NCBI GenBank assembly: GCA_910589415.1 | Contig: OU342639.1 | Span: forward strand, 13,276,268-13,340,267 | Origin: Malachius bipustulatus | Taxonomy: Eukaryota; Arthropoda; Insecta; Coleoptera; Melyridae | Direction of reading: 5' to 3' | DNA length: 64,000 bases | Part shown: one piece after another, positions 2,825-46,149 of the stretch | Layout: every line of letters begins with the position of its first letter | How positions within the stretch are numbered: the stretch's first letter is position 1 | Made by a program: the position numbers and the translations under genes | Notes under the pieces: model-generated | Seen by the model: the letters and a program-made list of their open reading frames with translations, nothing else | Databases searched by the model: none | Told to the model about the DNA's origin: nothing

Positions 2825-2962
2825 TTAGTGTATTTTTTAACAAAAAAATACACTATTGAGGACGACATCACTTTTCGAAAATCACCCAAACTCATCAAAT
2901 GTCCACCGATCATGACCCCCAGATTACGAAAAAGTGGTTTTCCAAAATTCACCTGCCCACGA

Positions 2963-3010
2963 TATATATATATATATATTTATATATATTTATATATTTA
3001 TATATATATA

Positions 3011-3053
<43 letters not shown>
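2963..3053. repeat. (AT)n microsatellite inside Hx copy 1
   Basis: About 90 bp of nearly uninterrupted TA repeats with scattered TTTA variants. It lies between the 3' hairpin region and the first internal 637-bp unit. It encodes only an artificial IYIY repeat in ORF searches. The same tract occurs at the same place in Hx copy 2 (19524-19568). Confidence 0.9.
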
Positions 3054-3083
3054 CTCCAAAATCGCGAAATTTCGATTTTAAAA

Positions 3084-4370
3084 ACGCTCCTGTGGCTTTA
3101 TCTTTCAAGATTAGTGAACGAAATTTTGGGTCCTTGTAACACTTTGGAATGACGTTGGATTTTCGTTGAAAAACTTTCCAAAAGTCCCATCACTTCTACA
3201 GGGTGTCCCTTCAAAATTCCATGAACCCGGTTTTTGTCATCTCATTTCAGGTCGCAGTTTTGAATCTAGGGGGCTGAAATTTTTGTGGGAGTAAGATATC
3301 TATAAAAACTGGTCTGGTATTGTACTTGAGCAAAATCGGTCAAGCGGTTTCAAAATGGCGGTCATTTTAATTTTTGAAAAATTTGCTAGTATTTGAACCC
3401 CTGTATGAGCAAGATGGAAAAAAAACTTTGAAACCAAATCAACAGGGTTTGAAGAAAATTATTTCAAATTTAATTTAATGTAACAAAATTTACATTACTT
3501 TTATTATTAAGCCAGTGGCGTGGATAGGAAAGTGGTAAAAATGGCTAAATTTCCCTAACAATTTATGAGCACATTTTTGAAGCAATTGAACTGAAATTTT
3601 TACAGTAGATAACTATACTAATAGCCTTTAACACTTAAAAATTTCAAGAAGTGAGTAAGAAAAATGGCCGAGATATTCGAATTTATTTTACATGATGTTT
3701 ATTTCTCTAAAATTTTAAGAACGCTCCAGTAGCTTAATTTTTCAAGATTAATGAACGAAATTTTTTACTTTTGTGAAACTTAGGGATGACGTTTGATTTT
3801 CACAAAAAAACATTTACCTAAAATGGCGCTACTTTTACAACGTGTCTCTCCAAATTTCCAAAAAAAAAAAAAAAAAACGGGTATGAGGCACGGTTTCTGG
3901 TCGCTGTTTTCAATCTAGGGGGCTGAAATTTTTTTGGTGGTAAGATGCAAGTAGTCGTATGGTACTGAATTTGAGTTAAATCAGAAGAGCCGTTCCAAAA
4001 TGGCGGCCCTTTCAATTTTAGGAAAAATTGATAGATTTTGAACCTCTAAATAAGCCAGTTAGAAACAAAAACTTTTAAACGAAATTAACATTACTGGAAG
4101 AAAATTATTTGAAATTTGAGTTATAAAATATTGAGTTAAAATATTGCAATAAAATTTGCAATATTTTTATTATTAAGCCAGTGGCGTGGGTAGGAAAAGG
4201 GAAAAAGGGCTAAATTTCTATAACTGTTTATGAACATATTTTTGAAGGAATTGAACGAAAATTTTTCCAGTAGACAACTACGAGTATACTAATAAACTTC
4301 AAAATTCAAAGATTTCAAGAAGGAAATAATAAAAATGGCGGAGATATTAGAATATTTTTACATATTATGT
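3084..4370 (-). repeat. Two tandem ~637-bp internal units of Hx copy 1
   Basis: The landmark ACGCTCC occurs at 3084 and 3721, and the sequence that follows is parallel in both units. Shared landmarks, in order, are a 'fixed' block about a fragment ATTAGTGAACGAAATTTT, a TACAGGGTGTCCC-like block, GCAGTTTTCAATCTAGGGGG, AAAATGGCGG and GCCAGTGGCGTGGGTAGG. The units differ by point changes and small indels, so the duplication is old. Copies 2 and 3 also contain two units, so the duplication is part of the family design. No ORF is seen. Confidence 0.75.
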
Positions 4371-4726
4371 TTATTCCTCTAAAATTTAAAATTTTCGGGT
4401 TTCAAAGCTCCCCTTTCACTTTTTCCATTCTATAAAAGGTAGTCTAAAAAATAGTATTTTTTAAGTAATGTTAGCCAGTGGCGGGCATAGGAAATGGGCC
4501 AAAATTGTTCAATTTTGCCAATGATATTTTTTGTTTTGTTAAATTTAAAAATTCATTCTAAGGCATGCACGGTTTAAAACGAAATAAAATGCAATTGTCA
4601 GTAAGCCACTACGCGAATATCACCTGACTATGTAAAATTTCAGAAAGCCAATTTAAAAAGCGGTGAAAATATTCAGAATTGAATCGCATAAAAATACACT
4701 ATTTCTGCGATTGATGCGCAAGAAGG

Positions 4727-5203
4727 TTTTTTTAGTTGACTTATGTATAATATCAATTCATTCTCTGTAATTGGGTTAAGAAAGAATGACGTCTTATTAA
4801 TAATTGAATTTATGTTCTCGCCTTTCACGTCTGTTTGAATGTCCCTTACTTCATTTGCCATTTTTTCACCTATGCTTATAAAAAATTGGTTAAATTCATT
4901 TGCTTTATCTTTAGAGTTTGCTATTATGTTACCGTCTTCTTTAATGATCTTGGTGTTATGATTGCTGTTTTGTTTTTCTGGCGTATTTATGCTCTCTTCA
5001 ATTGTTTTCCATATTTTTCTATAATTACTTCCTGCCTGCCCAATTTTTTGTTTATAGTAATTATCTCTGGTGATTTTTATAAGTGAATTTAATTTGTTTC
5101 TGTATTGTTTATATTTGTAACTTGCTTCAATCGTATAATTGTGATTGAGCTCCCTCTTTAATTTATCTCTGTATCTTATTGACACCAATATACCTTTAGT
5201 CAT
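4727..5203 (-). pseudogene. ORF2 linker between endonuclease and RT (cut by Hx copy 1)
   Basis: This is the basic connector region and the very start of the reverse transcriptase, with residues such as YRKIWKTIEE, FNQFFISIGEKMA and ENELILYISQLK, typical of the region upstream of RT block 0 in CR1/Jockey elements. The reading frame runs into poly-A (CTAAAAAA) and is then interrupted by the 5' end of Hx copy 1. The missing continuation, NNSSPGADG, is found beyond the insertion at 2824. The C-terminal residues CASIAEIVYFYAIQF of the ORF belong to Hx and not to the RT. Confidence 0.8.
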
Positions 5204-5260
5204 CCACTGTTTAATTTTTCTATTTTTACTGTTAATATTTTCAAGACGTGTATTGTTATT

Positions 5261-6283
5261 CTAATGTGTCTGTATTATTTCCAAGAATCTATCGTATGCT
5301 TCATCAGAGCTGCCTGCCCCTAGCACTGTGGACCAATTTTCTTTTGATAAAGCCTCACATATGTTATTATAATTAATAACTCTACGAGTTATTTGTTTGT
5401 TTTGTATGTTTTGAGATTTATTATTTTTAAATTTCACCGATAATGCTATTGCGTCATGGTCAGTTAATGAAGTTTTAAATATAAAGCTATTGATATGTAT
5501 TTGTTTCTTATTGGTAGACGACACCCGATTTCTTACAAAAATGTGATCTATTAGGGTTTTTGAATTCTCGGTGATTCTAGTGGGTTTATTTATGTATGGA
5601 AAGAGTCCGTGCCCCGCCATCATACAAATGTAGTTATTAGTTTCGGATTCGTTCGGTTTAAGAAGGTCTATATTAATATCACCCAAGAAGACTTCTATGC
5701 TTTGTTTCTCCAGTTTGAGATAGTATTCTTGAAGGTCACTAGTGTATAGTCCTATGTTAACAGGATGTGGACGATACGAGGCTGTAAGTCCTATTTTCTC
5801 CCCATTATATTCAAATTTTGCCCTAATAATATTGATCTCCGATAATTTAATTATGTCTACTGTAGCCTGGACATCATTTCTTATGTATAACATACTCCCA
5901 TCATTCTGATTATAATATGATTCATTATTGTAACATGTAAAATTCGAAATGTAGTAGTTACTTACCCCTTTTGTATTCCAACATTCTGATAAAATTATAA
6001 AATGGATATTTTCTAGGTTGAAGCGTTCAACGTATATGAGTAGTTCATTAAAATTTTTATTTATGCTTCTTATGTTCATATGTAGTAAATTTAGATTACC
6101 CAATAATTTTTTGACTTCTTCATCTTCTATATTATTAATTACTATGGTATCAGGAATTTGGCTGTCCTCCCCGTCATCATCACACCTTAACAAATTTTCA
6201 GCCAGCGTTGAATATTGACTAAAAAAACTAAAAGCTAATAAATATCTCCAAAATAACCAAAGTAATAATTCTTGTGCAATCAA
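5261..6283 (-). pseudogene. ORF2 N-terminus: APE-type endonuclease
   Basis: This segment nicks target DNA to prime reverse transcription. Visible APE motifs in order are LLHMNIRSI (catalytic Asn region), IILSECW (metal-binding Glu), ASYRPH, FLGDINIDLL (GD-N), TLIDHIFV, and TDHDAIAL in place of the usual SDH. All catalytic positions appear present. The first residues after 6283 look hydrophobic and may not be native; the conserved fold starts around the LNLLH motif. An in-frame TAG just below 5261 separates it from the linker (5203-4727) in a compatible frame, so ORF2 was once continuous. Confidence 0.85.
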
Positions 6284-6445
6284 TAACTAATTAAGAAAAT
6301 CAAACACTTGTCTTCCTCCTTTTTTTTTCTGTGGTTCACTCCCCTGATTTACCATTGAGATAATCATGTTAATTACACCCGTTTATTTTTCAGCATCTTC
6401 CAATTCTGCAAACATCGACCTCTCTTTTACTCCACTAAAACTATT

Positions 6446-7089
6446 TTATGGAATGTACTTTGTTATGTCCTCTGTGTTGTTTATTAATAACTTCGTTTCG
6501 CCTTTTCTATAGAAAATTCTGCCTCCCATGCTCCATACATTTCGTTTTCCCAATTTTAAAATTGCTTCCTTCAATAATCTATGGTTATCTTTGGTTAAAT
6601 CATCGGTTATAATTATTTCGGTTCCCTTCAATGTGTTCCTCTGCATTATTATTTCTTCTTTATATTTATATTGTTTAAATTTTAAAAGTATTGCCCTGTT
6701 TCCTTTTTCAGTAGTTCTACCTGTTCTATAAACTGCCTCTATTTTTTCACTGGTAAAATTCATTTTGGTTTTCCTTTTTATAACGCTTATTATATCTTCA
6801 CATTGTTCGTCCTTTTGTTCTGGTATTCCATATATTCTCACATTATTTTTACGTAGAACTTGTTCCATTTTATTTACTTTGTTATTTACCGTTTGTGTAA
6901 ACTTTTGCAAATTTTCAATGTCTTGTTTACTTTCAGTAAGCCTTTTATCAATATTCTTGGGTATATCGAGAGTTTTTTTTTTACCTTTAATGCGATACTA
7001 GCTATGAACGTTCCATCTGCAAATAATTCCTTGATTGTTTCTTGTATTATTGTTTTAAATTCATTTCTCTGTGATTGCGTGAAAACCAT
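6446..7089 (-). pseudogene. ORF1 protein of the CR1-like element, frameshifted
   Basis: ORF1 encodes the RNA-binding nucleocapsid-like protein of the element. The start at 7089 (MVFTQSQRNEF) precedes a lysine-rich helical stretch. The frame is lost at a run of T bases near 6970 and resumes in the 6910-6446 frame. That frame holds a coiled-coil-like segment, then VRIYGIPEQKDE, the 'I-x-I-x-G-I-P-E' signature at the start of the RRM-like domain of many non-LTR ORF1 proteins, and a basic C-terminal domain ending YIP. About 160 bp of non-coding sequence separates it from ORF2. One frameshift in a homopolymer makes it non-functional. The family assignment rests on the motif and on its place directly upstream of an APE endonuclease. 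Confidence 0.75.
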
Positions 7090-7189
7090 TTTTGCTCTAT
7101 TTTATTCTCGACTATGATATACTGTTTTTGGTATACTTTTCAAGATTTAATTTTCACTACGTATTTGTTAATTTCAATTCATATTTAAT

Positions 7190-7740
7190 ATGAATTGTGC
7201 CACTTGCTCTCAAAGTGCACTTGAGAAGGACTCTATGCGTGCGATTTTTGTGCTGAACGTTACAATTTTACAATTGCGCAGGCCTGTCAAGAGCGGAAGC
7301 TCAGTGTCTAAAAACTCCAAATCGCTTATCAAGCTTCTATTACTAAAATTGCAAAAACCTGAAAAACCAGGTAAAATGTCTTGCGGATCTTCAAAGTAAA
7401 GTGGAGAAGCTAGAAAGGAGCATTTCCGACATTCAATGGCGATTCGATGTAATTTCTCTACAAAATGAACCATCTGACCAGACTCATAGTACTGACAACG
7501 GCAGAAGCATCGATGGACTCGCGAACGAGATTGCAGACCACGAATGTCGCAAGACCAATGTCTTAATGTTCAACGTTGCGGAATCTGCTGAGGCTTCTTA
7601 ACCAAACCGAGTGAAGGATAACTTGTCCAATGTAAAATTGTTTCTTGCTGATATACCAAGCGCTACTGCAGAGGACATCAAAATCTTCCGACTTGGTAAA
7701 AAACGAAGTATAGTGAAGGTAAATCTTAATAAATAAATAG
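7190..7740 (+). pseudogene. ORF1 fragment of another non-LTR element, with PHD-like zinc finger
   Basis: A degraded plus-strand ORF1. It begins CATCSQSALEK...M(R)CDFC in a frame-corrected reading, a Cys pattern resembling the PHD-type finger found at the N-terminus of some insect non-LTR ORF1 proteins. It then has VEKLERSISDIQWRFD (coiled coil) and ECRKTNVLMFNVAES, the usual 'E.R..N...FNV.ES' entrance to the RRM-like domain. A later piece (NRVKDNLSNVKLFL, then IKIFRLGKK) follows a stop near 7601. At least two frameshifts and a stop are present. No linked endonuclease follows, so it is a 3'-truncated scrap. Confidence 0.5.
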
Positions 7741-7929
7741 CCAAAAGCGATACGGGGCTTTAAATAGTGAGAGGAGAAAACGTGGCAATCAATAGCATAT
7801 TGCAGTGGCTGAAAGGAGTGGTTCTGAAACTTGTCCCAGAGAATACTGACGCATCGTTGATCAACATCTACGGTCTTGTTCGTAGATCGTGTCTGTCCTC
7901 CCCCCCCCCTGAGTCCAGTGGTTTCTAAC

Positions 7930-8480
7930 TTCCACGTGGAATTCTTGGATTAGATTTAGATTAGATTTCTTTTGAGTGGGCCATTGTGATACCTCCACTG
8001 CGACCGTAGGTCTATTGTGGCTCAAATCTAGTCGTGCTCTTTAAGGAAGCTGACCATCTTGACTGTTGATAATATATCCAGATCCTCCGGTATAGGAAAC
8101 TCTCTCCCGAAGGTTTGTAATCTAGTTATTAGTCTTCCTTTTTCTCAGTGAGATTTGGAGTTGGATTAGAACCGATCTTCATAGAGTTGTCTAGAGATCG
8201 AGGTTTTGGCTCTCGTGCATATTTGTTTTACACACTCCATGGTTGCGCCAGGAGTGACTGGGAAAGGTTAGTTCACTCCCAGCAGAACCCGCTTGCAAGG
8301 AGTAAAGCTCAACACAAAAGGGTGCGCCCTGTGTCCCGAGGCTATGTTTGCCGCTAAGACTGAGCTACTCATAGTCATGCATCTCTTCAGCGCGCACAAT
8401 ACCTTGAGATTTGGGAGGTTTTTATAGTAGTGCCTCATCTACACAGTCCGGACGGTTAAGGGTTGATTAATTAAAGCATA
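7930..8480 (-). mobile_element. Probable 3'-terminal fragment of an RT/RNase H-type non-LTR element
   Basis: On the minus strand a short coding-like tail (FGREFPIPEDLD, then TVKMVSFLKEH and a stop) is followed by a GC-richer 3' UTR-like stretch (GAGGTATCACAATGGCCC), and the fragment ends in an ATCTAA-type short repeat at 7948-7966. A microsatellite tail is how several insect R1/I-like elements end. No RT motif is visible, so the class is inferred from layout and composition. It is clearly more GC-rich than its AT-rich surroundings. Confidence 0.35.
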
Positions 8481-8779
8481 GAAATTAGATAGAGACAAAC
8501 GCTTAAACTAAAAAGAAAAATTGTTAATTTGAAGATTGTGAATACTTCTGTGGCCAAGGTACTCTATTCGAAGTCCCCTCCCTCCTTTAACAAAGAAGGT
8601 TATATCTTTTAACATGCACTCTCACACACACTTTGAATACGGATATAATACGCCCACATATACCTTATTTTTAAATACGTGTCCAATACTTTTAATCCCA
8701 TTTCAGCGGTGGTTAAAGAGTTTTATATTATGATCCAAGAATTATTACTTGATTGGGCCTTTACGTTGAGATAGTCACC

Positions 8780-9230
8780 TGCACGTACAACGCCAATACG
8801 CCCACCGAACAGTCAAGTCAACTGACCTGGCGTTAGATGACCTTAGCAGGCTTATTTCGAGGTCGATTGACGACAAAGAAATAGCAGTCGCCCTGTTCCT
8901 GGACGTGGAAGGGGCGTTTAACAACGCTAGGCCGGGTCCCGGATCAGAGCAATACAAGGGAAAGGAGTACCAACCACCGTCTGCCGACGGATTGAGGAGA
9001 TCCTTATAAATAGGCAAATCTCCTCGGAATTGGGAGGTGCTTCCAGGACCTTAAAAACGACCAGGGGCTGCCCGCAGGTAGGGGTCCTGTCTCCTCTGCT
9101 GTGGACTGTCTTGGTACGACCTATTAAGAACGCTGACGAATGAGGGGTTCTGCTCCCTTGGTTACGCGGATGATCTAATAGTCATGGTGAGGGGCAAGTT
9201 GGTGAGGATTCAAGCTTTTTGAAAAAAGAA
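8780..9230 (+). pseudogene. R1-like reverse transcriptase fragment
   Basis: Frame-corrected plus-strand reading gives TDLALDDLSRLISRSI, then FLDVEGAFNNA (RT block with the first catalytic Asp), SSELGGASRTLKTTRGC, RGCPQVGVLSPLLW and finally GYADDLIVMVRGK (YADD box). The style 'FLD.EGAF.NA ... GCPQGGVLSPLLW' is characteristic of R1/Jockey-group RTs. There are several frameshifts and a deletion between blocks, and neither the upstream palm nor the thumb is present. The minus-strand ORF here is a shadow. Confidence 0.7.
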
Positions 9231-18112: not shown

Positions 18113-18861
18113 TACACCGTGTTTTATATTAAGTCGGCACTATTGCTAACTTCGTTATTATTTGAGCTAGAAAGTCGGTTAAATTAGCAAACTAGTAGTA
18201 TTTTTTCTCCTGAATAGAATGGCAAAAAGAGAAAAACAATTGAACATCGCGTTTTCGAGATATTTAAAAAAATGAACATTTTTTATGGAACACCCTGTAT
18301 ATTTTTAGATGGATCGGTTGCAAATTTTTTTTAAAGGAAAAAGTCTCTATGCACTATGATCCTAAAATAATAAAATTTTACAACACAAACAAGTTCTGTT
18401 ATTTGTTTATGTAAAATTAAATCCTTTTTCAAGGTAACAACTCTTATTTTTAGTGTATTTTTTTATTGAAAAATACACTATTGAGGACGACATAATTTTT
18501 TTACCTTACATTAAATTATAGATGCACGTAGATACACTAAATTACAACAATTGTCGCAGCCTACTTTGGGAGTAATAAAATAATGAATAATTAATGAATT
18601 TATTATTTTAGGATCATAGTGCATAAATACTTTTTCCTTTAAAAAAAATTTGCAACCGATCCATTTAAAAATATACAGGGTGTTCCATTAAAAAAATTAA
18701 ATTTTTTTTAATATCTCGAAAACGTGATGTTCAATTGTTTTTCTGCTTTCGCCATTTTATTCAGGAGAAAAAATACTACTAGTTTGCTAATTTAACCGAC
18801 TTTCTAGGTTAAATAATAACGAAGTTAGCAATAGTGCCGACTTAATATAAAACACGGTGTA
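18113..18861. mobile_element. Palindromic element with TACACCGTGTTTTATATTAAG ends
   Basis: The left end TACACCGTGTTTTATAT is mirrored at 18861 (ATATAAAACACGGTGTA). Arms of about 280 bp (18113-18395 and 18595-18861) keep strong complementarity, e.g. AGTCGGCACTATTGCTAACT against its complement. The ~200-bp centre carries the isolated 3' hairpin of Hx (18450-18495). Each arm has an internal CACCCTGTA about 187 bp from its end, facing inward. No coding capacity. Confidence 0.8.
18450..18495 (-). repeat. Isolated 3'-terminal hairpin of Hx
   Basis: TAGTGTATTTTTTT, a short loop, then AAAAATACACTATTGAGGAC matches the 3' end of the full Hx copies, but nothing upstream of it does. It sits almost exactly in the centre of the 18113-18861 palindrome. 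Confidence 0.7.
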
Positions 18862-21034
18862 TATACAGGGGGTGTCTTGCTAAGGTTGGCCACCGGCCAT
18901 ATCTCGGAAACTAATGGGCCTATAACTTCAAAATAAAAATTTTCCAGACATAAGTGATCACGAGAAATTCAAGGAAAATATTTTCAAGATGGCCGCACTT
19001 CCGGAAATACCGGAAGTTGACACCTACTTCGTTATTTTAACGGAAACACCCTGTAAAATATTATATTTTTTAAATGTCTGAAGAAATCGAATACAAGTGG
19101 TTTTCACCATTGGAATTTAGATTGAGCGGTTTATGAGTTATAAACAAGTGAAAATCGAAAATTTTCAACTGCAAAGCAGTCTAGAACTAGAACGGCTCAA
19201 GATATCTAAAAACGGTTTACATGTCCCTATCCTAACTTTTCATGTTTTATCCCACCATGTGGAGTAAATTTTAATACAGGGAGATGAAAATTATCTGATT
19301 TTTCATCACCCTGATGTATTAAAATTTAAACCACATAGTAGGATACAATGTGAAAAGTTAAGATAGGGAAATGTAAGCCGTTTTAGTGTATTTTTTAACA
19401 AAAAAAAATACACTATTGAGGACGACATCACTTTTCGAAAATCACCCAAACTCATCAAATGTCCACCGATCATGACCCCCAGATCACGAAAAAGTGGTTT
19501 TCCAAAATTCACCTGCCCACGATATATATATATATATATTTATATATTTATATATTTATATATTTCATCAAAAACGCGAAATTACGATTTTAAAAACGCT
19601 CCTGTAGCTTTATCTTTGACAATTAGTGAACGAAATTTGGGATCCTTATAAAACTTTGGAATGATATTAGATTTTTGTTGAAAAAATTTCCAAAAGTGGA
19701 GACACTTCTACAGGGTGTCCCTTCAAAATTCCAGAAATCCGGTTCTTGTGGTATCATTTCAGGTCGCAGTTTTCAATCTAGGAAGCTGAAATTTTTGTGG
19801 GAGTAAGATATCCACAAGGAGTGGTCTGGTATTGCACTTGAGCAAAATCGGCCAAGCCGTTTCAAAATGGCAGCCATTTGAATTTTTTGAAAATTTGCTA
19901 TTTTTTGAGTCCCTGTATGAGCAAGATGGCAATAAAACTTTAAAATTAAATTAACAAGATTTAAAGAAAACTATTTGAAATTTGAATTAAAGCAATAAAA
20001 TTGGCATTATTTATATTAATAAGCCAGTGGCGTGGGTAGGAAAAGGGTAAAACTGTCTAAATTTCTATAACCGTTTATGAGTTCATTTTTAAAGAAATTG
20101 AACTGAAATTTTCACAGTAGGCAAGTATACTAATATCCTTTAACCCTTAAAAGTTTCAAGAAGTAAATAAGAAAAATGGCGGAGATATTAATATTTTTTT
20201 CATATGATGTTTATTTCTCTAAAATTTTAAAACCGGTGCTGTAGCTTCATATTTAAAGATTAGTGAACGAAATTTTTTACCCTTGTGAAACTTCAAAATG
20301 ACATTTGATTTTCGTAAAAAAAATTTCCTAAAGCTACGTTATTTCTACAGAGTGTCCCTCCAAATTAAAAATAAAAACCGTCTATGAGGCACGGTTTCTG
20401 GTCGCAGTTTTCAATCTAGGGGGCTGAAATTTTTTTATGAGTAAGATAGCCGCAAGAAGTCTGGTACTGTATTTGAGTAAAATAGAACCGTTTCAAAATG
20501 GCGGCCTTTTCAATTTTAGAAAAAATTGCCAGATTTGGAACCCCTATACCTACCTACCTATAAGCAAGTTAGAAAAACAAATTTAAACCAAATTAACACG
20601 ATTGGAGAAAATTATTTTAAATTCGCATTATTTTTTATAAGCCAGTGGCGTGGGTAGGAAAAGGGTAAAAATGGCTAAATTTCTATAACCGTTTATGAGC
20701 CTTTTTTGAAGGAATTGAGCTGAAGTTTTTCCAGTAGACAACTATACGAATAACCCCTAACTCTGAAAAATTTCAAGAAGCAAATAAGAAAAATGGCGGA
20801 GATATTCGAATATTTTCACATGATGTTTATTCCTCTAAAATTTCAAATTTTCGGTTTTCAAAATTCCCCTTTCACTTTTTGCGAATTTATTAAAGGTAGT
20901 GTAAAGAATAGTATTTTTTGAGTAAAGTTAGCCAGTGGCGGACACAGAAAAAGGAAAAAAAAATTAAATTTGCCATTTTTTTTTATTTTGTAAAATTTAA
21001 AAATCCATTCTAAGGGACGTTTTCAAACTAAATG

Positions 21035-24000
21035 CACAGAGAAAAGAAATTGTTTGGCTGAAAGAAAAATTATTCAACTTAAATAAATTTGTTGTTTCAA
21101 TAGAGAGAAATAAAAGTTTATTTGAATTTTTTCAATTATTTGTTTGAAATTTCAGAGGGTAGACTTTGTTGAATCAAACAATATTAATGTTGCAATATTC
21201 AATAAAATTTATTTGAATCAAACAAATTCCGTTATTCAATCAAACATATATTGTTTTCAATAACAGGAAGCATTCTTTAACTTAACTTTTCGCTTGTTTA
21301 TTTGAAATAAAATATTATTTGATTTTAAACTATAATTTATCGAACCAAATAATTTTACATTAAAAAATTTAAAGAAATATTTGTTTGGTTTTGTCAATAT
21401 CCCCGTGGGTAAAAGGTTAGGTTAGGTATATAAAAATAGATTTATAATAATAAGGCATTACTTATACTTTTTATTGTCAAAAAACAGTAATAAGTTAACC
21501 ACAAAACAACAGAGCCAACCTAATCATTCGTAATTATAAAATATTAATATTGCAACATTTGTACCTTAAGTAATAAGTAGGTATACGTTTTCTTCCCACG
21601 AGAACAATAATTTTCATTTTCATTGGTGACGGATTTCAAGTTTCAGCTGGTCAGGACCATCGGACACATCTGCAAATGATTTGGCTTCTTCTAATAATTC
21701 ATAGAGGAGAAATCTCGTATTTTCGTCTAAAACAGAACGATATTTTAAATTCCTTAATTCTTGTAGCAAGTTTGCAATATAATGGAAGAGATATCACACA
21801 AATAAGCTACGAGGTAGAGTACTTACCTTCAAATTTTAACAAGTGCCGTGTGCATCAGATTGTATTTGCGGACAGAGATTCTCCAATATCCATTAGGTAG
21901 GTAGGTATATCCATCTATTAGGTATTACTGTTCCGCTGTTACAATACAACACACTGAACACACAAAACAGCAACTAATATTTATACCTATTCGCCTATTC
22001 CAATAAATTATTATTCACTAATTAGTATTACTGAAAACAATGCGGAATTGATGAACTAACTCCATACCACGCCATGATTTTACACCAACACAACACCATC
22101 AGTCAGTCACCAACCCTGCTGGGGTAGTGTAGTCCTTCCAGTCGCCACCAGAGGAAACAGACGCTACATCACGTGATGTATACAACAACAAATCTATGAC
22201 AAATCAAAAAAGTTAATGCTTGATTCAAAGTTTTATTTATTTCTCTGTCAATGGGTAGCGTCAATGACGTCTAAATAAAATAGACCCCCTTGTTTACATT
22301 TTTACAGAATCATTCATTGCCCCTCCGCAATTGCATGTTTGCCAAACCGTTACTGTGACCAGATTTTTGAATACTATCGTTCTTGAAACCATGACGTAAA
22401 TATATAAACAAGGCATTATCAATACAAACCGCGCGAAGTACTTCTTACTAATAATTAAATAGCATAATATTTCTAATAAACTCGAACAACAATAATGGGA
22501 TAGACGTGATTTAAATCATATATGAATATAATTTTCAATGTTAAGAAATGAAACACAAAATGCGCGGCAACGACGTATGTTTACGCGACTACGATATTTT
22601 TTCAAATTTTACAAATTCATTCATCATTTCGAGTGCGGTGTTGTCCCTATTTTGATTTCATTAGACGAGTGTTTTAACGAAATTAAACTGCTTCCTGCTA
22701 TTATTTCCACCAATTTAAAATTATAGACTATAGACAATAGTGCGAACTTTCTTGATGTGCAAGAAAAGAGACGATTTAAACCCAGAAGTTTGTTTTTGTA
22801 GGTGAGTACCAGTAAGTAAGGCTATGTTCATATCAGTGCTGTAGTCGCCGCAGGGAAAAATCTTTGGAAAATCCAGTAAAATTTAAATTATCCTCTGAAC
22901 ATTGCAATTGTTACGTACCTACTGTGACAAATTTCAACAGTACGTCCCATTGTAAGTATATTAGATATTATTTTGATAATTATTGGGCTTTAGATTCCGG
23001 GTTACTATTTTCGAAGTTTTAGATTTTGACAAATCTAAATGTCATAATTTATATTTTATATTTTAATTTTACTTTTCAATTTTTATTTGTACTTTACTTA
23101 TTATTAACTGTGATCAAGGAACTAATCAGTCTCGAAACGTTAAACTTCCGATCGGTAACTTCGAAAATAGTAAGCAGGAACCTAAAGCCCAATAATTATC
23201 AAAATAATCCCTAATATACATCATCGGCGTCAATTTGGTTCAATATTTACAATTTTCTAATTATCCTCTAATACCGTTATCTTAGAAGATGTTCACAAAT
23301 TGGATGACTTTACAACTTCAACTGTTACACCAGTTCCTTCCTAAGATTTGCGTTCCTGTTTAACTTAGAAATATCTATACATTTGTCTCAAAAATTTCAC
23401 AAATCACCTTTATTGAGGGTCTAATAAATAACAAAAAATATTATGATGGTCTTTTTGTAATCTACTAGTTAAATATGCTAAAGTACCTATGTATTGTCTT
23501 AGCTTTCCTGTGAATCAGGAGAAGAGGTTGCTTTGGCTTTCTGTACATCTAAGAAAAGTGTTTTATAGGATTAATCTTCATACAGACAGATAAGTACGGT
23601 ATTCCATTAATCATACAAAGTAACCCAAACTCGCTATTTTTCGTCCTAAATATTAATTCGTCGGAAATAATAATTATCTTGAAAAACCCTACGCCACTGG
23701 CTCTCATCGCGAGGGTTTCTGACAGCATTGCCATTTTCACCGCAAACCTCTATTTATGCGATCGGTCACTCCTTTTCTCACTCACATGAAGATACAAATT
23801 AGATGATGGATTTCGAATATTTCATATTTATGAATGGAATGTTGGGTCTATTGATTTAGACGTCATTGGGTAGCGTTAATTAAAAGCAAACAATTCCTTA
23901 TTTTTATTTTTATTGTTAGTTTATTTGGATCGATAAAATACTTCTTTCTTTCAAACAAATTTACGGTAAAATATTCTTATTTCAGTCAAAATTATTTTTA

Positions 24001-24347
24001 TTTCAATGAAAAGCATAAGTTCTTATTGCAACAGTGAAATTATTTAGAACAAAATAAGATTTGTTTGAACGAAATAAACGATGCATAAAATCAAATAAAT
24101 CTGATGTGTTTCTTTCTAGCTGTAATTTATTCAAATTAAATAAATTCTTAATAATTAGCAAATTTATTTGTTTGATTTGAAAAAAATGTACCTGAACCAA
24201 TTCAAACAAATGATTGAAAAAACTGAAATAAATGGTATTATTTAGGGCAAATAAATTAATTTTCAATCAAAAGGAAAATGTTTTAGTCAAATAAATTGTA
24301 TTCAAATAAATGAAAATACTGATTTCAAATAAACTGTTTTCTCTGTG
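21035..24347. mobile_element. 3.3-kb TIR element CACAGAGAAAA, non-autonomous, with unexplained cargo
   Basis: The ends are CACAGAGAAAA (21035) and TTTTCTCTGTG (24347), with AAATG found next to both ends, consistent with a short target duplication. The first ~350 and last ~480 bp are filled with diverged AATCAAACAAAT/ATTTGTTTGATT repeats, giving extended, imperfect inverted arms. Both arms also hold a GACGTCATTGGGTAGCG-like motif (22245-22285 and 23850-23880, inverted). The 1.6-kb core shows no transposase. Small ORFs (21676-21900, 22538-22726, 23549-23740) have no recognisable domain. It disrupts Hx copy 2 in the block between GTTTTCAAACTAAATG and AAATGAAATTTTCTCAG. Confidence 0.65.
22956..23219. 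repeat. Inverted repeat with 61-bp arms inside the 3.3-kb TIR element
   Basis: The left arm 22956-23016 starts GTATATTAG and ends TATTTTCGAAG. The right arm 23159-23219 is its reverse complement with few mismatches (CTTCGAAAATAG ... CTAATATAC). The 142-bp loop contains TCTCGAAACGTT, a phrase common in Penelope terminal repeats, but no full hammerhead core. Confidence 0.7.
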
Positions 24348-24967
24348 TGAAATGAAATTTTCTCAGTAAACCACTACGCTAATATGACCTGACTATGGAA
24401 AATTTCAGAAATCCAATTTAAAAAGCGGTGAAAATATTCATAATTGAATCGCATAAAAATACACTATTTCTGCGATTGATGCGCAAGAAGGTTTTTTAGA
24501 TATCTTGAGCCGTTCTAGTTCTACATTGCTTTGCAGTTGAAAATTTTCGATTTTCACTTGTTTATAACTCATAAACCGCTCAATCTAAATTCCAATGGCG
24601 AAAACCACCTGTATTCGATTTCTTCAGACATTTAAAAAATATCAAGTTTTACAGGGTGTTTCCGTTAAAATAACGAAGTAGGTGTCAACTTCCGGTATTT
24701 CCGGAAGTGCGGCCATCTTGAAAATATTTTCCTTGAATTTATCGTGATCACTTATGTCTGGAAAATTTTTATTTTGAGGTTATAGGCCCATTAGTTTCCG
24801 AGATATGGCCGGTGGCCAAACTTAGCAAGACACCCTGTATACATATATGTTTATTTACATATATACATATATAGGTACTTTTTTAGTCATCGACTAAGTT
24901 GGAACAATATACTAATATAGTAGGGAGTTCGATGAATTCAGGGCAGAAATGAGGACTCTGTTTTCAG

Positions 24968-37660: not shown

Positions 37661-37663
37661 CTC

Positions 37664-37703: not shown

Positions 37704-37758
37704 TAACGTGTGCGCAAGCGATGCTTCCACTCATCTTCACTAGCATGGCCGAGCGCTC

Positions 37759-38150
37759 CTATTTATCTCGTGACGTCATACCCCTTTCACTAGCTATTGC
37801 TATTTCCATTGTAGCATCGGCCGGTCTCTTTGATAATGTCATAGGTCCCTGAGTCACACGATGTCTCATTTGGGTCTGACGTAACGCGGGATGCCAAATA
37901 CTCCGCAGTTTCAATATTTCCTTCTGCCTGTTGAAATTATTTTCATGTTTGTATTTGTCTGTCTGGCCCAGGCGACAGTTTCTCTTGTGGTCGATCACGC
38001 GGGTGTTGACACTGAGTTTGGTAGTTCCCATGTATACAGCACCACAACAGCACGGTATTTTATAAACTCTAACAGAAGAAAGTGGATCAATTGGGTCTTT
38101 AGATGAGCGGAAAATTGTGCGAAATTGTTGTGTACGTTCGATGCTACTGG
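37759..38150 (-). pseudogene. Penelope-like element C-terminal GIY-YIG endonuclease domain
   Basis: A minus-strand reading gives FRTIFRSSKDPIDPLSSV, RVYKIPCCCGAVYMGTTKLS, then VNTRVIDHKRNCRLGQTD, matching the 'Y.IPC.CG..Y.G.T.R....R..EH...' core of GIY-YIG nucleases in Penelope-like retroelements. EIAIASERGMTSRDK follows, which fits the usual end of the domain. The first Tyr of the GIY box appears as VYKIP and the YIG box as VYMG. A frameshift lies near 38060 and 37950-37990 looks truncated relative to the family. The RT domain is absent. Confidence 0.65.
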
Positions 38151-38206
38151 ACGGATCCTACAATGAAGATAGCTAGTGGAGGGGGTATCCCCTTGCGAAC
38201 ACGTTA

Positions 38207-38247
38207 CCGCTGATGATGTCTACCGCAGCTGTAGACGAAACGTTCGG
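38207..38247 (+). ncRNA. Hammerhead ribozyme core in Penelope terminal repeat
   Basis: Stem I CCG (38207-38209), CUGAUGA (38210-38216), an extra U (38217), stem II GUCUAC / GUAGAC (38218-38223, 38231-38236) with a 7-nt loop, GAAA (38237-38240), C-GUU (38241-38244) and stem I CGG (38245-38247). Stem II is perfect; stem I is only 3 bp. It is antisense to the GIY-YIG fragment. Confidence 0.5.
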
Positions 38248-38319
38248 CGCAAATCTCCATGGACCACGGCGAAACATCCCGGAATCAACTATGATCATTA
38301 TACTATTCATATTCATAAT

Positions 38320-38370
38320 ATTCATGTATATATTATATATATACTATATATATATTATATATATACTATT
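38320..38370. repeat. TA-rich microsatellite
   Basis: TATATATACTATATATATAT-type repeat of about 50 bp just right of the Penelope remnant. Confidence 0.8.
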
Positions 38371-38465
38371 CATCAATATACTGTTGTTCGGGGTAGTGCA
38401 AAAAGCACCTGATATGATTCGGAAAGAAATTGTTTGGATGCACTTTACTGATTTCAGGTAGGATA

Positions 38466-39774
38466 TACAGGGTGGTTAAAAATTCGATGCTCACCATTGA
38501 GATCTCAAAAACGGTGAAAGATACATGGTGGGTGGTGGGTTAAATTAGAGAAAAGTTGCGCAATTTTATGTTTATTAAGAATCTGAAAGAAAATTTATGG
38601 AAACTTCAGGCGTTGCTGAAATATCAAAAACCAAATTTTGGGCAACTTTAGTCGTTGCTGTCTTCTTCTTTTTTTCTGTGGTCTTCCTTTATCGAATAAA
38701 AAATTAGGAAATTATTTCAGTGAATGACGTCGATATCACGTCGCCAAGTGACATTGCTTGCCTTATGGTTTTTTTATGACCATTTGGTTAAAGAAAGGTC
38801 ATTTTTTCGAAAAAAGGAGAATAAAATTGTGACGATTTTTTTTTACAAGTGATAGATTTTTGGTTTCCCTGATTTGTTTAATACCGAATCACACAAAAAA
38901 TAATATAGCAGCCCTAAGAAAAACAAAAGTCGGCTATGAAAACCCTGGGATCTAGTAAGTAGGCTTTGAAAATTTTCGAAATATCAAATGAATGGCTGCT
39001 GACGACTTATGCAACCTATAAAAAATTGTTAATTTATTTTCAATAATAAAAATCTCTTTTTTAATTTAAATATTAATTTCGACAGAACACTCAACCACGG
39101 GTTAAAGATATGCCAATTTAACCGCAATTATTTCTGTTAAAAATGGCTCCGTTAAAGAGGGACTGAATACACATTTTCCAAAATAAAATTTAAAAAATGA
39201 ATTAAATGAAAAACTTTAGTTTCAAGGCCTACTACGATTATTCTCCAGACCAATAAATGCCAAAAAAGTTGTTTCTGTGGAATCGAACTTATTATTTTGA
39301 ATAAAATGAAAATTTCACAAATATACGTTTTCATGGTGTAAGTCCATCATTAAAAATTAATTATGGGAAAACAAGCAAGATAACAATTTTTTATAAGGAC
39401 AAAAAGTTTAGCAATACTTAAGCCTTTGGATAAAAAATACAGAATCAATCAGGGGCGTGCGGATAAAAAAGTTTTAGAGTAAAAAGTAAAATGTGACATC
39501 AAAAACAGAAACAGCCTGTATGTCAATATTTGTAAAACTATGTCAGTGTATCGATTTTAACAATAGTAGTAGGCGATAAAATTTTTAAGTTTCTCAGTTA
39601 ATCCGTTTTTGACTTATTCTGGAAAACGTATATTTGGGTTTAACCCTTTTATTAAGGGCCTGTATCTTGAAAAGGGTGCCTTTTTGGACATAGATAATTG
39701 CGGTTAAATCGGCATATTTTGTGCTCGGGAATCTGTGTTAGAGCGTTGGTGGTACCTTTTAGCGACACCCTGTA
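38466..39774. mobile_element. Composite region bounded by TACAGGGTG ends
   Basis: TACAGGGTGGTTAAAAATTC starts at 38466 and CGACACCCTGTA ends at 39774. The two ends do not match each other beyond the terminus. However, the right arm complement (ATATGCCGATTTAACCGCAA) reappears at 39108-39135 as ATATGCCAATTTAACCGCAA, so a second, degraded left arm starts inside. This looks like two different TACAGGGTG elements joined or nested. No coding capacity. Confidence 0.4.
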
Positions 39775-40423
39775 TAATACCAATATAATATAGCCAAGTC
39801 CAATGTTGCTTTTGAAATCAACCATTTATGTATGTAAAGGCGGGCAGTTTTAAGCAAATAAGTGAATTTTGTAATCGTAACGCGAGCTCTGTAACAGATT
39901 TTTAGCCTGAACGGAACAGTTTTTTCTGATTATTTTATCATTTACATAAAATGTTAAAGTTTATGCTTTTTTAGTTTAGTTTCAGGGTTGTATTATTAAC
40001 AAGCGGAGAATGATGGCTGTTATTTGTAAATTATACAATCTCAATCTGTCAATACAATAAATTTTGTAATTTAGTTTTTTTAGATTCTTGCAGAGCTCAT
40101 ATACATTTAAGACCAGGGTTTTTTGTTGTGTCTAATAAATTTTTCAATAGATTTCCTCTAGATTTTTCTTTGATCATTGAATTCGTTATAAAAGGTTTTT
40201 GTTTACGCTTAATTTTTACGCTGAAGACACCTTTGTTAACAAACATGAACTGATCTGAATGGGCATACTTTTTTTATTATCTATGTATTAATTTTCTTTG
40301 TACTGATTAAGACCTGGCCATTAAAGTTTTATAAAACACAACTGATTAGAAACATATTTCTCTATTGCTAAATTTCTAAAGTTCGGTACCATTTTAGTGT
40401 AGGTATAAGAGCTTTCAAACCTA
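39775..40423. other. No gene recognised
   Basis: AT-rich spacer without visible structure. Confidence 0.5.
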
Positions 40424-41715
40424 CGAGGGTCATTTGAAAAGTGTCCGTCCTTACCGGCAAAACGTCATGGCGCATTCAAGTTCTCTTGCCAATCAATAGA
40501 GGGCCTTTCCATATGTTTGCCATAAAAATGTCAAGTCATTCCGATCAGTACAAAACACATGGTACCCTTCCAAAGTTGACAGGTGACGTTTGTTAACGAA
40601 AATGGATAAAATCGACTATCGCGCGGTGATAAAGTTCCTGTATTTGAAAGGGAAAAAAACTCGGGAAGTGAAAGAAGAGTTAGACTCCGTGTATGGTGAA
40701 TCGTCGTTCTCATTTACAACCGTGAAACATTGGGTGGCCGAGTTCAAACGCGGTCGTACAAGCATTTTTGACGATGAACGTTCTGGTCGCCCAAAAACTG
40801 TTTCCACGGAAGATATTGTCAGTTTAGTGCACACAACCGTGATGGAAGATCGCCGATTAACCATTAGGGAAATTGCCGAGGCTTGTGGGATATCAACTGA
40901 ACGGGTGCATAAGATTTTACATGAAGATTTATGCATGAGAAAATTATCCGCGCGATGGGTGCCGCGTTTGTTGACGATCGACCTAAAGCGCGTAGGGATG
41001 GACATGTCGCGCGAAACTCTTCAGCTGTTCCAAATGAATCCTACTGAGTTTTTGCGCCGATTAATTACTGTCGACGAAACCTGGATCCATCACATTACTC
41101 CGGAGACTAAACAACAGTCAATGCAGTGGATTGAAGTGGGGGAACCAGCTCCGAAGAAGGCGAAGGTCGTTCTTTCTGCCGGAAAAGTTATGGCGACAGT
41201 TCTTTGGGACAGCCGTGGAGTAATTATGGTTGATTACCTTCAAAAAGGTAAAACCATTAACGGACCCTATAACGCTGCGTTGCTGGACCAATTGAAGACG
41301 GAACTCAAGAAGAAACGACCACACGTGGCGAGGAAGAAGGTGCTGTTTCATCAGGACAACGCGCGAGTCCACACGTGCATGGTCTCAATGGCGAAATTGG
41401 ACGAATTGAAGTTCGAATTGCTTCAGTACCCATTCTACTCACCAGACCTAGCTCCGAGTGACTTTTTTTTGTTCCCCAACTTGAAAAAATTTCTGGGTGG
41501 GAAAAAATATGGGTCAAATACCGAAGTTGAAGAGGCAGTAACCTGTATTTTTCAGGTTTACCTAAAGAATTTTTTTCTGATGGCCTGAAGGGTTGGGAAA
41601 AGCGTTTGACCAAATGTATTGACTTGCGTGGAGGCTATGTCGAGAAATAAATTTTTGTTTCGCTTGAATTATGTGTTTTTCTTCAAAAGGCCAGAAACTT
41701 TTCAAATGACCCTCG
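40424..41715 (+). mobile_element. mariner (DD34D) transposon, nearly intact
   Basis: A 1292-bp unit with TIRs CGAGGGTCATTTGAAAAGT (40424) and ACTTTTCAAATGACCCTCG (41715) and a TA duplication at 40422-40423 and 41716-41717. Length and layout are those of a complete mariner. It carries one transposase gene on the plus strand. The TIR is intact, so it could still be mobilised in trans. Confidence 0.95.
40602..41648 (+). pseudogene. mariner transposase (DD34D), one C-terminal frameshift
   Basis: The transposase cuts and re-inserts the element at TA sites. I start at ATG 40602 (MDKIDYRAVIKFLYLKGK); the longer frame from 40590 has no earlier ATG. The N-terminal paired HTH shows HWVAEFKRGRTSIFDDERSG, then SGRPKTV and IREIAEACGISTERVHKIL. 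The linker is WVPRLLT. Catalytic boxes are TVDETWIHH (D1), FHQDNARVHTC (D2) and YSPDLAPSDFFLFPNLK (D3), with D2-D3 spacing of exactly 34. A one-base loss near 41555 ends the frame at 41588. The other frame continues PKEFFSDGLKGWEKRLTKC to TAA 41648, restoring the family's normal end of about 345 residues. Confidence 0.9.
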
Positions 41716-42552
41716 TATCATAAGATATGTCCTAGAAGATATCAATTTCTGGAAGGAATAGTTTTTTTTTTAATACATCAAAAGAAAAAAGTATGTATCA
41801 TTAGTTACTAGGTACTGGTACTAATAAAGGTGAGTATGGATGTTGAATACTTCAATACAAATCGTAGCCATTTATTAAACTATAGATACAAATTAACAAC
41901 CTACTTGAACATTGAGAGGCAAATAAACTAAGAACGGTATGTTTGAACAACTTTAGGTTACAAATAAATTTAATCTGACATTTATAGGTTTTTATTCCTC
42001 TAACATGTCATAAAATATCATTTCAAAATCAATACTAGAATATAAAATCTAATAACACCAGCATTGACGCCAACGTTTAAAACGTCCACATATTTATAAG
42101 TGCTCGAGCTGCTTTCTCCTAGAACATCACATAGGAGCAATCTTGAAACTAACCTCAGGAGGCAACTTCTAAATCTAAAGCCTCGCCAACAGCTTACATC
42201 TCAGCGATGAGCTTGATACCTATCCTATATATTATCAAGGTCTATGTAGATGAACTTTTAGATGCTTAACGCGATATTTTTGAACCATTATTATAATATT
42301 ACCTCCACAGTTGTAAATGTGACGTTGAGAATAAATAACAACTATTTTTTATCAATAATAACGCGCTATATTTTATAACTAAACAGCTATTCAATATTAT
42401 TATTTACGTGTTGGATTAACTATGTACAGTGTACACCTAAATCTAATTCATATGTTGCAAAATTACATTTACAAATGAATATCAAAAGGTAAAGTAAAAA
42501 CAGTGGAAAGTCAACTCAAGAAAGTTTCCTCGACTTATTTCTAATTTAAAAA
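41716..42552. other. No gene recognised
   Basis: AT-rich spacer between the mariner and Hx copy 3, with no structure that I can see. Confidence 0.5.
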
Positions 42553-43062
42553 ACCTTCTTGCGCATCCATCGCGTTAACAGTATATTTTTTTTGCGTCGA
42601 TTCAATTATGAATATTTTCACCGCTTCTTAAATTGGCTTACTGAAATTTTGCATAGTCGGGTCATATTGGCGTACTTAGTGGTTTACTGTGAAAATTTAA
42701 TTTCATTTTGTTTGATAGCGTGCCATAAAATGAATTTTTTAATTTAACAAACCAAAAAAATTGGGCAAAATTTTACAATTTCGTCCCTTTTCTTATGCCC
42801 GCCACTGACTAACTTTACTTTAAAATGCTATTTTTACACTACTTTTAATAAATTCGAAAAAAGTTACAGGGGAGTTTTTTTTCATTCATTTATTTAAATT
42901 ATCGTGTCTCGACATCAGATGGCCATTGACACATTAACAGTACACCTTACAATATTAAAATATTATACAAGAAGAGGAAGATTTGCATTTGCATTTACAT
43001 TAGTTCTATTAAAATCTGTATCATAAAGAATTGAAGCTGGCATTGATTCTTGGATCCATTTC

Positions 43063-43990
43063 TTATATTTCATGGTAGAGGTCTATATCTTGCAGGTATT
43101 CAATGAGACGTGGTATCTGGCTGGGGGAACTGAGGATTTCCCGTATGCACTGTGATAGGCATTTATTTTGCCGGCTTATCTCGTAGTGAGGGCAGTCTAT
43201 AATTATGTGTTTAACGGTAAGGGGGTGGAAACATTTTCGACATACAGGTGGGTCCTCGGTAGCCATTAGGTGTTTGTGTGTTATCCGCGTATGGCCAATT
43301 CGCAGTCTTCTGATGACAATTTTTTCTCTTCTGCTCATAGGAGGTAGTTCAACTGGTTTTACTGAGGGATGGATTTCCTGCAGCTTGGAGGGGATTGTAT
43401 TCCAGTGGATTTGCCAAGAGATTCTTGTGGAGCGTTTAAAGTGGGCTTTGAGATCGGTATGGATTTGAACTCTTTCAGGAGTTGCGTTTGATGATGTGGT
43501 TTGTTTGGCCTCCTGGTCGGCTTTCTCGTTTCCAGGTATGCCGACATGTGATGGAATTCAAATTATAGTAATGGCTACTCCAAGGGAGGCAAGTTTATTG
43601 GAAGAGTCGTGGATGGCTGATACTAGGGGATGGTCTGTATAAATGTTGTTAATAGACTGGATGGCGGCAAGTGAATCTGTGCATATGGCTACTTGCTTGT
43701 GGTCGGAAGTTAGTGAGTTCAAGGCTTGTTGGATAGCAAAAACTTCACCTGTGTGGACGCTGGAGAAAGACGGCAGAAGACTTGTTATGATGGCTCGGTC
43801 AGTAGAGGTGACTGCACAGCCTACGTCAGTTTCAGATTTGGAAGCATCCGTGTAGAGGATTTTATCAAAGTGGAACGAGTTGATTAGAGTTAGGAAGGCT
43901 TGTTTTATTACTTCATGTGGAGTTTCAAGTTTGTTGTATCTGGTGAGGGAGGTGTTGATTTTTGGCAGTGACTTGTCCCAGGGCGAGGAA
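43063..43990 (-). pseudogene. RNase H domain and zinc-knuckle C-terminus
   Basis: In a frame that the longest-ORF view misses, the minus strand reads a KSETDVGCAVTS stretch, FSSVHTGEVFAIQQAL (Glu), AICTDSLAAIQSI (Asp), an in-frame TGA at the Trp of 'II(W)IPSHVGIPGNEKAD' near 43552, then the RNase H end and IVIRRLRIGHTRITH, CRKCFHPLTVKHIIIDC, the terminal C-x2-C...H...C motif. One stop and otherwise good conservation suggest recent decay. Confidence 0.75.
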
Positions 43991-44181
43991 GAGGAAATAG
44001 GTTTTAAGGTTGTCTGGGTGAGGTTTATGTTGCGAAGAAGGGGGGAGAGAATTTGCGGTAGCGGTTGTGGCCTTGACTGATTAGGATTTGTGTGAGGGAA
44101 GTTTATTAGTGATGAAGCAGGATTTTGTTGATTAGCAGATATTCTGGCAAAGTATAGCAGTAGAATTTGCCGACGTCTCAG

Positions 44182-44658
44182 TCATAAAGGTGGTTCATTA
44201 GCCTCACAGTAGAGACTTTCGGCAGGGCTGGAACGGTAGGCTCCTAGACAGATTCGCAGTGCTGTGTTTTGGACTGTATTGAGGGGTTTTAGGTCGGATT
44301 CTGTAGCTGACATGTATACGAAGCTGCCATAATCAAGTCTCGAGCGTATGAGGGACCTGTATATTCTCAACAGGACATCCTCATCGGCCCCCCACCGAAA
44401 GTGTGACAGGGTTTTGAGAATATTGAGTCTGCTCATGCAATCGGTTTTAATATTTTTGATGTGGTGTTTCCAGCTGAGTCTACTGTCGAAGGCCAGTCCA
44501 AGAATTTTGTGGTGGTCGACCACCGATAGGAGTTCCCCGTTGAGAGTTATCTGCGGTACACTTGAGTAATGAGTTCTCCGGCTAAACCGGATTACCTTGG
44601 ATTTTGCCGCGGAGAACTGGAGGCCAGTGGTAGACGACCATTGAGCGAGTTGGTTCAC
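44182..44658 (-). pseudogene. RT thumb region of the I/Jockey-like element
   Basis: LAQWSSTTGLQFSAAKSKVI, then KILGLAFDSRLSWKHHIK, LNILKTLSHFRWGADEDVLL and IRSRLDYGSFVYMSATES are the conserved post-YADD and thumb residues of RNase H-bearing elements ('LDYG...Y'). The catalytic YADD itself lies upstream and is lost. The frame is open for 158 codons. Confidence 0.85.
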
Positions 44659-46149
44659 TTCTGTCTGGATTAACGCAGTTGTAGTTGGAACACTTCTACC
44701 GTGACAAAAAATGCTTCTTGAAATTTTTCAGACTTGAAAGCTATCAGTATAGTTGTCTACTGTAAAAATCTAAGTTAAAAACCTTTAAAAATGTGCTTAT
44801 AAACGGTTATAGAAATTTAATCATTTTTACCCTTTTCCTACCCACGCCACTGGCTTATCAATAGAAATAATGCATATTTTATTACACTAATTAAAATTGC
44901 GAATTATTTTATTCTAAGCTTGTTATTTTGGTTTAAATTTTTTTCTCTATCTTGCTTATACAGGGATTAAAAAAAATAGCAATTTTTTTTTAATTCAAAA
45001 AGTCGCCATTTGGAAGGGCTCGACCGATTTTACTCAAATACAGTACCAGGCCACTTTTTGTGGATATCTTACTCCCACAAAAATGTCAGCTCTCTCGATT
45101 GAAAACTGCGACCAGAAACCGTGCCTCATGCCTCATTTACGTTTTTTTTTTTTTTTTTTTGAAATTTGAAGGTCCACCCTGTAGAAGTAACGCGACTTTA
45201 GGATTTTTTTAACGAAAATCAAATCATCTCAAAATTTCACAAGAGAAAAAAATTTCGTTCATCTTGAAAGATGAAGCTACAGAAGCGATTTTAAAATTTT
45301 AGTGAAATAAACATTTAAAATATTTAAAATATCTCCGTCAGTTTTCTTATTTTCTTCTTGAAATTATTTACAGTTAAAGGTTATTAATGTAGTTGTCTAC
45401 TATAAAAATTTCAGTTCAATTCCTTCAAAAATGTGCTCATAAAAAGCTCATAAAAATCATAAAAATTTAGCCATTTTACCCTTTTCTTACCCACGCCACT
45501 GGCTTATTAATAGAAATATTTCAAATTTTATTGCATTACTAAAATTTAAAATACTTTTCTCCTAATCATGTTAAATTGGTTCCAAAGTTTTTGTCCATCT
45601 TGCTCATACAGGGGTTCAAAAAATGTCAATTATTCCAAAAATTCAAACAGACGCCATTTTGAAACGGCTCGGCCGATTTTGCTCAAGTGCAATAACAGAC
45701 CACTCCTTATGGATATCTTAATCCCAAAAAAATATCAGGCCACTAGATTGAAAATTGCGACCTGAAATGAGATCACAAGGACCGGGTTTTTAGAATTTTG
45801 AAGTAATGTCGTCCTCAAGAGTTTATTTTTTTAATGCACTAATCAAAGATTTACGGTCAACTAAAAATGACGAATACTTGTGAATTGGTGTTAAGGGCGT
45901 ACACTCAGTAATCGCAGGGATGTTTTTGCTTTTTAACGGGAAGGAGAGTATTGAGACGGTACAGTATTCTGTCACTATTTTAAAGTAAATTAAGCACACA
46001 ATCCCCAGAAGTGGAGCATTTTTTTTTAAGAAACGACCACTTCTGAGAAAACATATCTCCAATATACGTGACACAGACAGGAAATAATCAAAATACCAGC
46101 GACACGAGGGATGGGTCGAAGAAAATTCTTAAGTAATGTATAAAAAGAA

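Follow-up and report, generated by a model that had tools for sequence, protein, structure and literature searches.

The window analysed here is a stretch of 64,000 nucleotides from the genome of the beetle Malachius bipustulatus (G000:C17:13276268-13340267; the genome comprises 544 Mb in 52 contigs). It is rich in transposons, and contains four copies and several fragments of a repeat family, here called Hx. A preliminary description of the stretch presented Hx as a transposable family with hairpin ends, with the Helitrons as its nearest kin, which inserts into A tracts and fits no known class. The repeated family is real, and its kinship with Helitrons is upheld by the analysis below. Copy 1, described here in the HINE orientation argued for below, is full length and occupies positions 2826-4726 (+ strand). 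It runs from TAGTG to AAGAAGG, and is followed by seven T's at 4727-4733. Copy 2 (19384-24491, + strand) lies within the arm of a foldback repeat, and is itself interrupted by a nested foldback-type insertion of 3.3 kb at about 21035-24348. Copy 3 (42554 to ~45841, - strand) is diverged and has degenerate hairpins; it carries a fragment of a long interspersed nuclear element (LINE), including RNase H, at about 42879-44713. Copy 4 (52909 to ~54064, + strand) is partial: it keeps its 5' end, lacks a 3' end, and contains a foreign segment at about 53002-53738. There is also a solo Hx 5' end, consisting of the hairpin and 13 nt, at 18451-18493 (+ strand), and a short Hx-like 5' end fragment at 61103-61131 (- strand).

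The polarity of Hx is opposite to that of the strand on which it was first described, and the supposedly Helitron-like CTAA|T 3' end is in fact the 5' end of Hx. Read in this direction, copy 1 has the order T|TAGTGTATTTTTTAACAAAAAAATACACTA-TTGAGGACG...(TA)n...two central repeats...AAAAATACACTA-TTTC-TGCG-ATTGATG-CGCA-AGAAGG|TTTTTTT. The element starts T|TAGTGTATTTTT, which is the 5' subterminal inverted repeat (subTIR) and pairs with its own complement to give a 5' hairpin. In copy 1 this hairpin lies at 2826-2855 (+ strand), and is made of the subTIR TAGTGTATTTTTT and its complement AAAAAAATACACTA. The fold of 2826-2870 has an energy of -10.7 kcal/mol (z -7.7), and none of 200 shuffles folds as well; the same result (0/200) was obtained for copies 2 and 4 and for the fragment at 18451. 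The hairpin previously noted as TAGTGTATTTTTT..AAAAAATACACTA is therefore sound in these four places but degenerate in copy 3, a diverged copy for which 186 of 200 shuffles give an equally good fold.

The hairpin is followed in copy 1 by a (TA)n microsatellite (2962-3051, approximate limits, + strand), and by two central tandem repeats of ~640-680 bp (3075-4390, + strand). By self-alignment the two repeats correspond to Hx positions 251-894 and 888-1566, and are 73% alike. The 3' module (4690-4726, + strand) consists of a second subTIR, AAAAATACACTA, the palindrome TGCG-ATTGATG-CGCA and the sequence AGAAGG, with the subTIR sitting 25 nt ahead of the T's. The subterminal inverted repeats are asymmetric, being 0 nt from one end and about 25-29 nt from the other, and the statement that Hx has no terminal inverted repeat missed this arrangement, although the motif common to both ends, AATAGTGTATTTTT, had been recognised. 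When the last 60 nt were Markov-shuffled 2000 times, the exact 12-nt match between the subTIRs was never reached; it was reached in one of 2998 within-element controls. The modules are well conserved across copies: AAAAATACACTA is present in 32/33 3' ends, TGCG-7-CGCA in 31/33, and both hairpin arms in 29/31 5' ends (located by an adjacent motif). The sequence CCTTCTTGCGCATC, earlier said to form an end common to all four copies, occurs exactly three times in the window against 0.20 expected from shuffles; it is found in three copies rather than four because copy 4 lacks that end. Hx is non-coding, as had been stated. There is no frame of at least 130 codons inside copy 1, and the two frames listed there merely overlap its ends.

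Copy 1 interrupts a LINE reverse transcriptase, and its flank has 24 matches in the genome, of which two uninterrupted relatives (L069 and L070) were read. The empty site in these is continuous, GAATTA-TTTTTT-AGTTGAC, while the filled site has two T's, Hx and then seven T's. Over 600 bp on either side the flanks show 97.8-99.0% identity, and the only gain is of T's. Further empty sites were sought by comparing the joined flanks of 20 copies with the window and the loci extracted from the genome, and a spanning match was obtained for five. Empty sites of T5 became nine T's in L006 and L007 (identity 99% and 98.7%), and ten T's in L010 (80%) and in copy 2 (89%); in a weak case, L012 (75%), T4 became twelve. 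L006, L007 and L010 lie inside other Hx copies, and their empty sites are therefore Hx sequence. L003, which lies within the 5' hairpin of another Hx, has eleven T's against seven or eight in the empty relatives shown, and is consistent with these cases, although its right-hand match is short. Since the empty sites differ from the filled ones by T's only, we conclude that Hx inserts into a T tract, gaining 3 to 5 T's in the firm cases, with no other duplication.

The junctions agree with this. They were counted as distinct junctions in the window and in loci up to L067, using a strict 5' motif, which misses 5' ends that have degenerated, as in copies 3 and 4. At least two T's were found at 27/27 5' junctions (background 0.12 per position), and at least four at 33/33 3' junctions (background 0.022 per position). 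The preliminary description was thus right about an insertion into an A/T tract, and its A tract is the T-tract target seen on the other strand. The two interruptions that it pointed out, in the reverse transcriptase and in the foldback arm, are both genuine by empty-site comparison. It had also proposed looking in empty sites for a fixed duplication together with terminal inverted repeats; its view of Hx survives this check, because there is no duplication beyond the T's.

These results bear on two other explanations. The presence of inverted repeats and hairpins at the ends, a high copy number and a lack of coding capacity would suit mobilisation by a cut-and-paste transposase, with Hx as a miniature inverted-repeat transposable element (MITE) or foldback element. 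Such elements have inverted repeats at both termini and a fixed target duplication, whereas the Hx repeats are asymmetric and its empty sites have no fixed duplication, which makes this origin very improbable. A retroposed, SINE-like element (short interspersed nuclear element), made by target-primed reverse transcription and with the A tract as its tail, is suggested by the A run adjoining one end on the strand first described. We consider it extremely unlikely: empty sites (T5 or T6) already contain the A/T tract, the element is fixed at both ends, and the copies tested lack a flanking target duplication. In addition, the exact end motifs occur in near-equal numbers in the genome, 3,092 for the 5' end and 3,216 for the 3' end (with 0 for a backward-read control), unlike those of 5'-truncating retroposons.

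The features of Hx can be compared with the plan published for Helitron2 elements, Helentrons and HINEs (PMC4067079, PMC3627910, PMC7492417, PMC5148889; all four are cited here and below from excerpts). In this plan there are subterminal or asymmetric inverted repeats, of which the 5' copy forms part of a terminal hairpin and the 3' copy lies about 20-60 nt inside, ahead of a palindrome. There is a microsatellite with central repeats, and the target is a T tract, with no duplication and a variable number of T's. In HINEs a 5' subTIR of 8-15 nt lies 0-4 nt from the 5' end; in Hx, TAGTGTATTTTT comes directly after the flanking T. The 5' hairpin contains the subTIR, except in the degenerate copy 3, and a matching 3' subTIR lies within the expected 20-60 nt of the 3' end. 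Empty sites and junction counts both indicate a T-rich target without target duplication, and the microsatellite and central tandem repeats, which are common but not obligatory in HINEs, are present as well. On the basis of this agreement, it is very likely that Hx is a HINE, that is, a Helentron of the Helitron2 group that is non-autonomous, codes for nothing and is mobilised in trans by the Rep-helicase-endonuclease of a Helentron. The family is probably new but belongs to a known and ordinary class, being likened to published HINEs by architecture rather than by comparison of sequences. The claim that Hx fits no known class therefore falls away once the element is read in the opposite direction, in which it closely fits the Helitron2/Helentron/HINE group (PMC3627910, PMC4067079, PMC7492417), and what might have been a new class of transposon is a Helentron read backwards.

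A canonical, non-autonomous Helitron1, with a 5' TC and a 3' CTRR and inserted between A and T, was hinted at by the CTAA|T junction and 3' hairpin in the orientation first described, and proteins of the corresponding RGLPH type (group A, below) are also present in the genome. However, Hx has no 5' TC and no hairpin-then-CTRR spacing, and goes into T tracts rather than between A and T; in its paired subTIRs and its 5' hairpin it has two features of Helitron2. There is thus very little likelihood that Hx is a Helitron1.

Among HINEs, Cg_HINE of Crassostrea gigas (PMC7492417) resembles Hx in having an 11-12 bp 5' subTIR with a complementary inverted repeat, a microsatellite, central tandem repeats, a 3' subTIR and 3' palindrome, and an oligo-T target without target-site duplication. 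The two are also alike in that no autonomous partner has been found, the authors of that study being unable to relate their HINEs to one. Hx differs in its host, in having (TA)n instead of a mostly tetranucleotide microsatellite, and in its two long central repeats of ~640-680 bp. DINE-1/HINE-Mo and Helentrons (PMC4067079) share with Hx the subTIRs, the 3' palindrome, and T-rich sites with T's on both sides, whose number varies by copy, and the 5' inverted repeat and hairpin of Hx are as drawn there for DINE-1; this comparison is by description and not by sequence, and no autonomous partner with the same ends was found for Hx. Compared with the Helitron2 group more generally (PMC3627910, PMC5148889), Hx is non-coding and its 3' hairpin is weak.

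Proteins that might move Hx were sought with a PF14214 search of the same genome, which gave 37 matches, of which 30 were taken as loci. Motif reading placed eight of these in group A (RGLPH, canonical Helitron1), six in group B and eleven in group C (both RGSPH, which marks Helentrons by the diagnostic of PMC4067079); neither motif was read in the remaining five (L035, L038, L043, L049 and L053). The genome thus encodes Rep proteins of the Helentron (RGSPH) type, which are combined with PIF1 helicase and endonuclease-like domains. In Pfam, group B (L061) matches DUF6570, Rep and PIF1, with OTU just at the cut-off and an endonuclease match below it, while group C (L063, in several frames) matches DUF6570, Rep, PIF1, endonuclease and UCH. 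Among 120 of the 785 proteins that match the group B protein at E <= 1e-20, the best are about 45% identical to it, and come from organisms such as a scale insect, a mealybug and rotifers.

Several observations count against the assignment of Hx as a HINE, or at least against parts of it. Four Helentron-type loci were inspected with their flanks (L061 with L065 and L067, L062 with L066, L063, and L064), and no autonomous element bearing both Hx ends was found. As to the partner with Rep and helicase that the preliminary description suggested searching for, Helentron-type proteins exist in the genome, but as far as seen Hx ends bound none of the four loci. L061 looked like a partner because it has Hx sequence on both sides. 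Its Rep-helicase reading frame, however, lies inside a 17.9-kb insertion that splits an Hx central repeat, and since this repeat is continuous in copies 1 and 2, we read the arrangement as nesting, in which the gene makes no use of the Hx ends. The T gain is not constant: it ranges from 3 to 5, and would be 8 in the weak L012 case (75% identity). Finally, the palindrome at the 3' end is a short one, which folds no better than shuffles do in copies 1, 2 and 3: out of 200, 41 were as good for copy 1 (30 with a shorter piece), 24 for copy 2 and 146 for copy 3. Copies 1 and 2 prefer a competing stem, AATCGCA/TGCGATT. The weakness of this fold weighs against the termination step of the model outlined next, and not against the classification.

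The model starts from what is observed, namely the ends, the paired subterminal repeats, the 5' hairpin, the T-tract target, the lack of target duplication at the tested sites and the very high copy number; its nicking, rolling-circle, stop and joining steps are borrowed from the known group. A Helentron Rep transposase would nick at the 5' T|TAGTG end, and rolling-circle replication would then displace a single strand, passing through the central repeats and halting at the 3' palindrome, where pairing may occur between the 5' and the 3' subTIR. The displaced strand, probably circular, would be joined between the T's of a T tract.

It is worth adding some details of the Helentron-type loci. 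The L061 locus (with L065 and L067, G000:C6:38728000-38748499) has in its 17.9-kb insertion an open Helentron-type Rep-helicase frame of 2323 codons and, after it, a tandem array in which GTGTGTAGACACAAGCGTCACACC is abundant. The sequence TTAGTGTATATTC upstream of this frame was considered as a 5' end and rejected, as homology between copies runs on upstream of it. L061 and L062 (with L065 and L066), both of group B, are 97% identical to just past the stop codon, beyond which the DNA is unrelated, and their N-terminal parts are only about 75% alike; it is as if a coding module had been swapped between contexts. The group C genes L063 (598-8258) and L064 join Rep, PIF1 helicase, endonuclease and ubiquitin hydrolase (UCH). 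They align over L063 621-1787 and 2950-8464, and not in the gap between. L064 was also rejected as a partner: the gene has an Hx 5' end at a distance of 0.7 kb, but this is on the other strand and points away.

When copy 1 was used to search the genome, 5,908 first-look candidates came up, and 40 of them were scored. Besides copy 1 itself, these include copies matching the complete query at up to 98% identity, and copies matching from about the microsatellite onward at up to 99%. Hx offers a HINE family of ~3,000 copies, up to 98-99% alike, with a near-identical empty site and in a chromosome-scale genome, which should be useful for testing the origin of T-tract targeting and of the variation in T number, and for tracing the helper element. 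The exact Hx 3' end was also scanned against IMG/VR, with no match.

Half of the scored copies (20 of the best 40) align only from about (TA)n onward. Ten of these were read with their upstream DNA (L017, L019-L022 and L024-L028). In L025 and L028 the 5' part of Hx is found farther upstream, with 0.6-0.85 kb of foreign DNA intervening; in L017, L020, L021, L024 and L026 the upstream ~1 kb is foreign sequence; L022 and L027 have an opposite-strand piece of Hx upstream; and the upstream DNA of L019 has no Hx match. We do not claim one-ended transposition for such copies, because other elements landing in or near (TA)n account for at least some of them. In L028 the other element (about 150-1003) lies within the (TA)n tract; its terminal inverted repeats, CCGGGTGTCCC, adjoin TA. 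The microsatellite of Hx may be a landing site for other elements.

The spacing of ends was analysed in the first ~30 Mb of contig C1, using 93 rows for the 5' end and 98 for the 3' end, out of 100 each. A same-strand 3' end was found within 25 kb for 61/93 5' ends, and a 3' end on the wrong side for 6/93. Eight of the 61 pairs are 1.33-1.35 kb long and 16 are 1.80-1.88 kb, the remainder being scattered. Five pairs are 10.8-11.3 kb long (at about 1808480, 4271866, 9612350, 14252442 and 26893078 in G000:C1). These could represent a long Helentron that has Hx ends and is autonomous or carries cargo, with (TA)n as the junction where Helentron modules swap, but we think this improbable: when two of the five pairs were sampled at one and the same offset, they did not match each other. 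One has inside it an open reverse-transcriptase-like frame, which we take to be Penelope-like from its motif. In the other, no open reading frame reaches 90 aa, and the 3' part consists of an Hx copy that starts at the microsatellite.

Some copies are found in tandem. L019 contains two directly adjoining copies that share a T4 between them, the first 98.5% and the second 85.5% like copy 1. In L071 (1-2201; G000:C1:15050300-15052500), three Hx 5' ends lie head to tail without an intervening 3' end; measured from one hairpin motif to the next, they are 499 bp apart. This array looks like rolling-circle tandem copies, and head-to-tail tandems are reported for Helitrons in the introduction of PMC7492417.

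Two of the insertions within the Hx copies of the window deserve comment. A Pfam scan of 52924-53355, which overlaps the foreign segment of copy 4, gave no match at 0.01; on the minus strand the segment (53002-53738) resembles by eye a piece of what we take to be a DDE transposase. The nested element in copy 2 (21035-24348) is 3.3 kb long and of foldback type, with long inverted ends CACAGAGAAAA...TTTTCTCTGTG.

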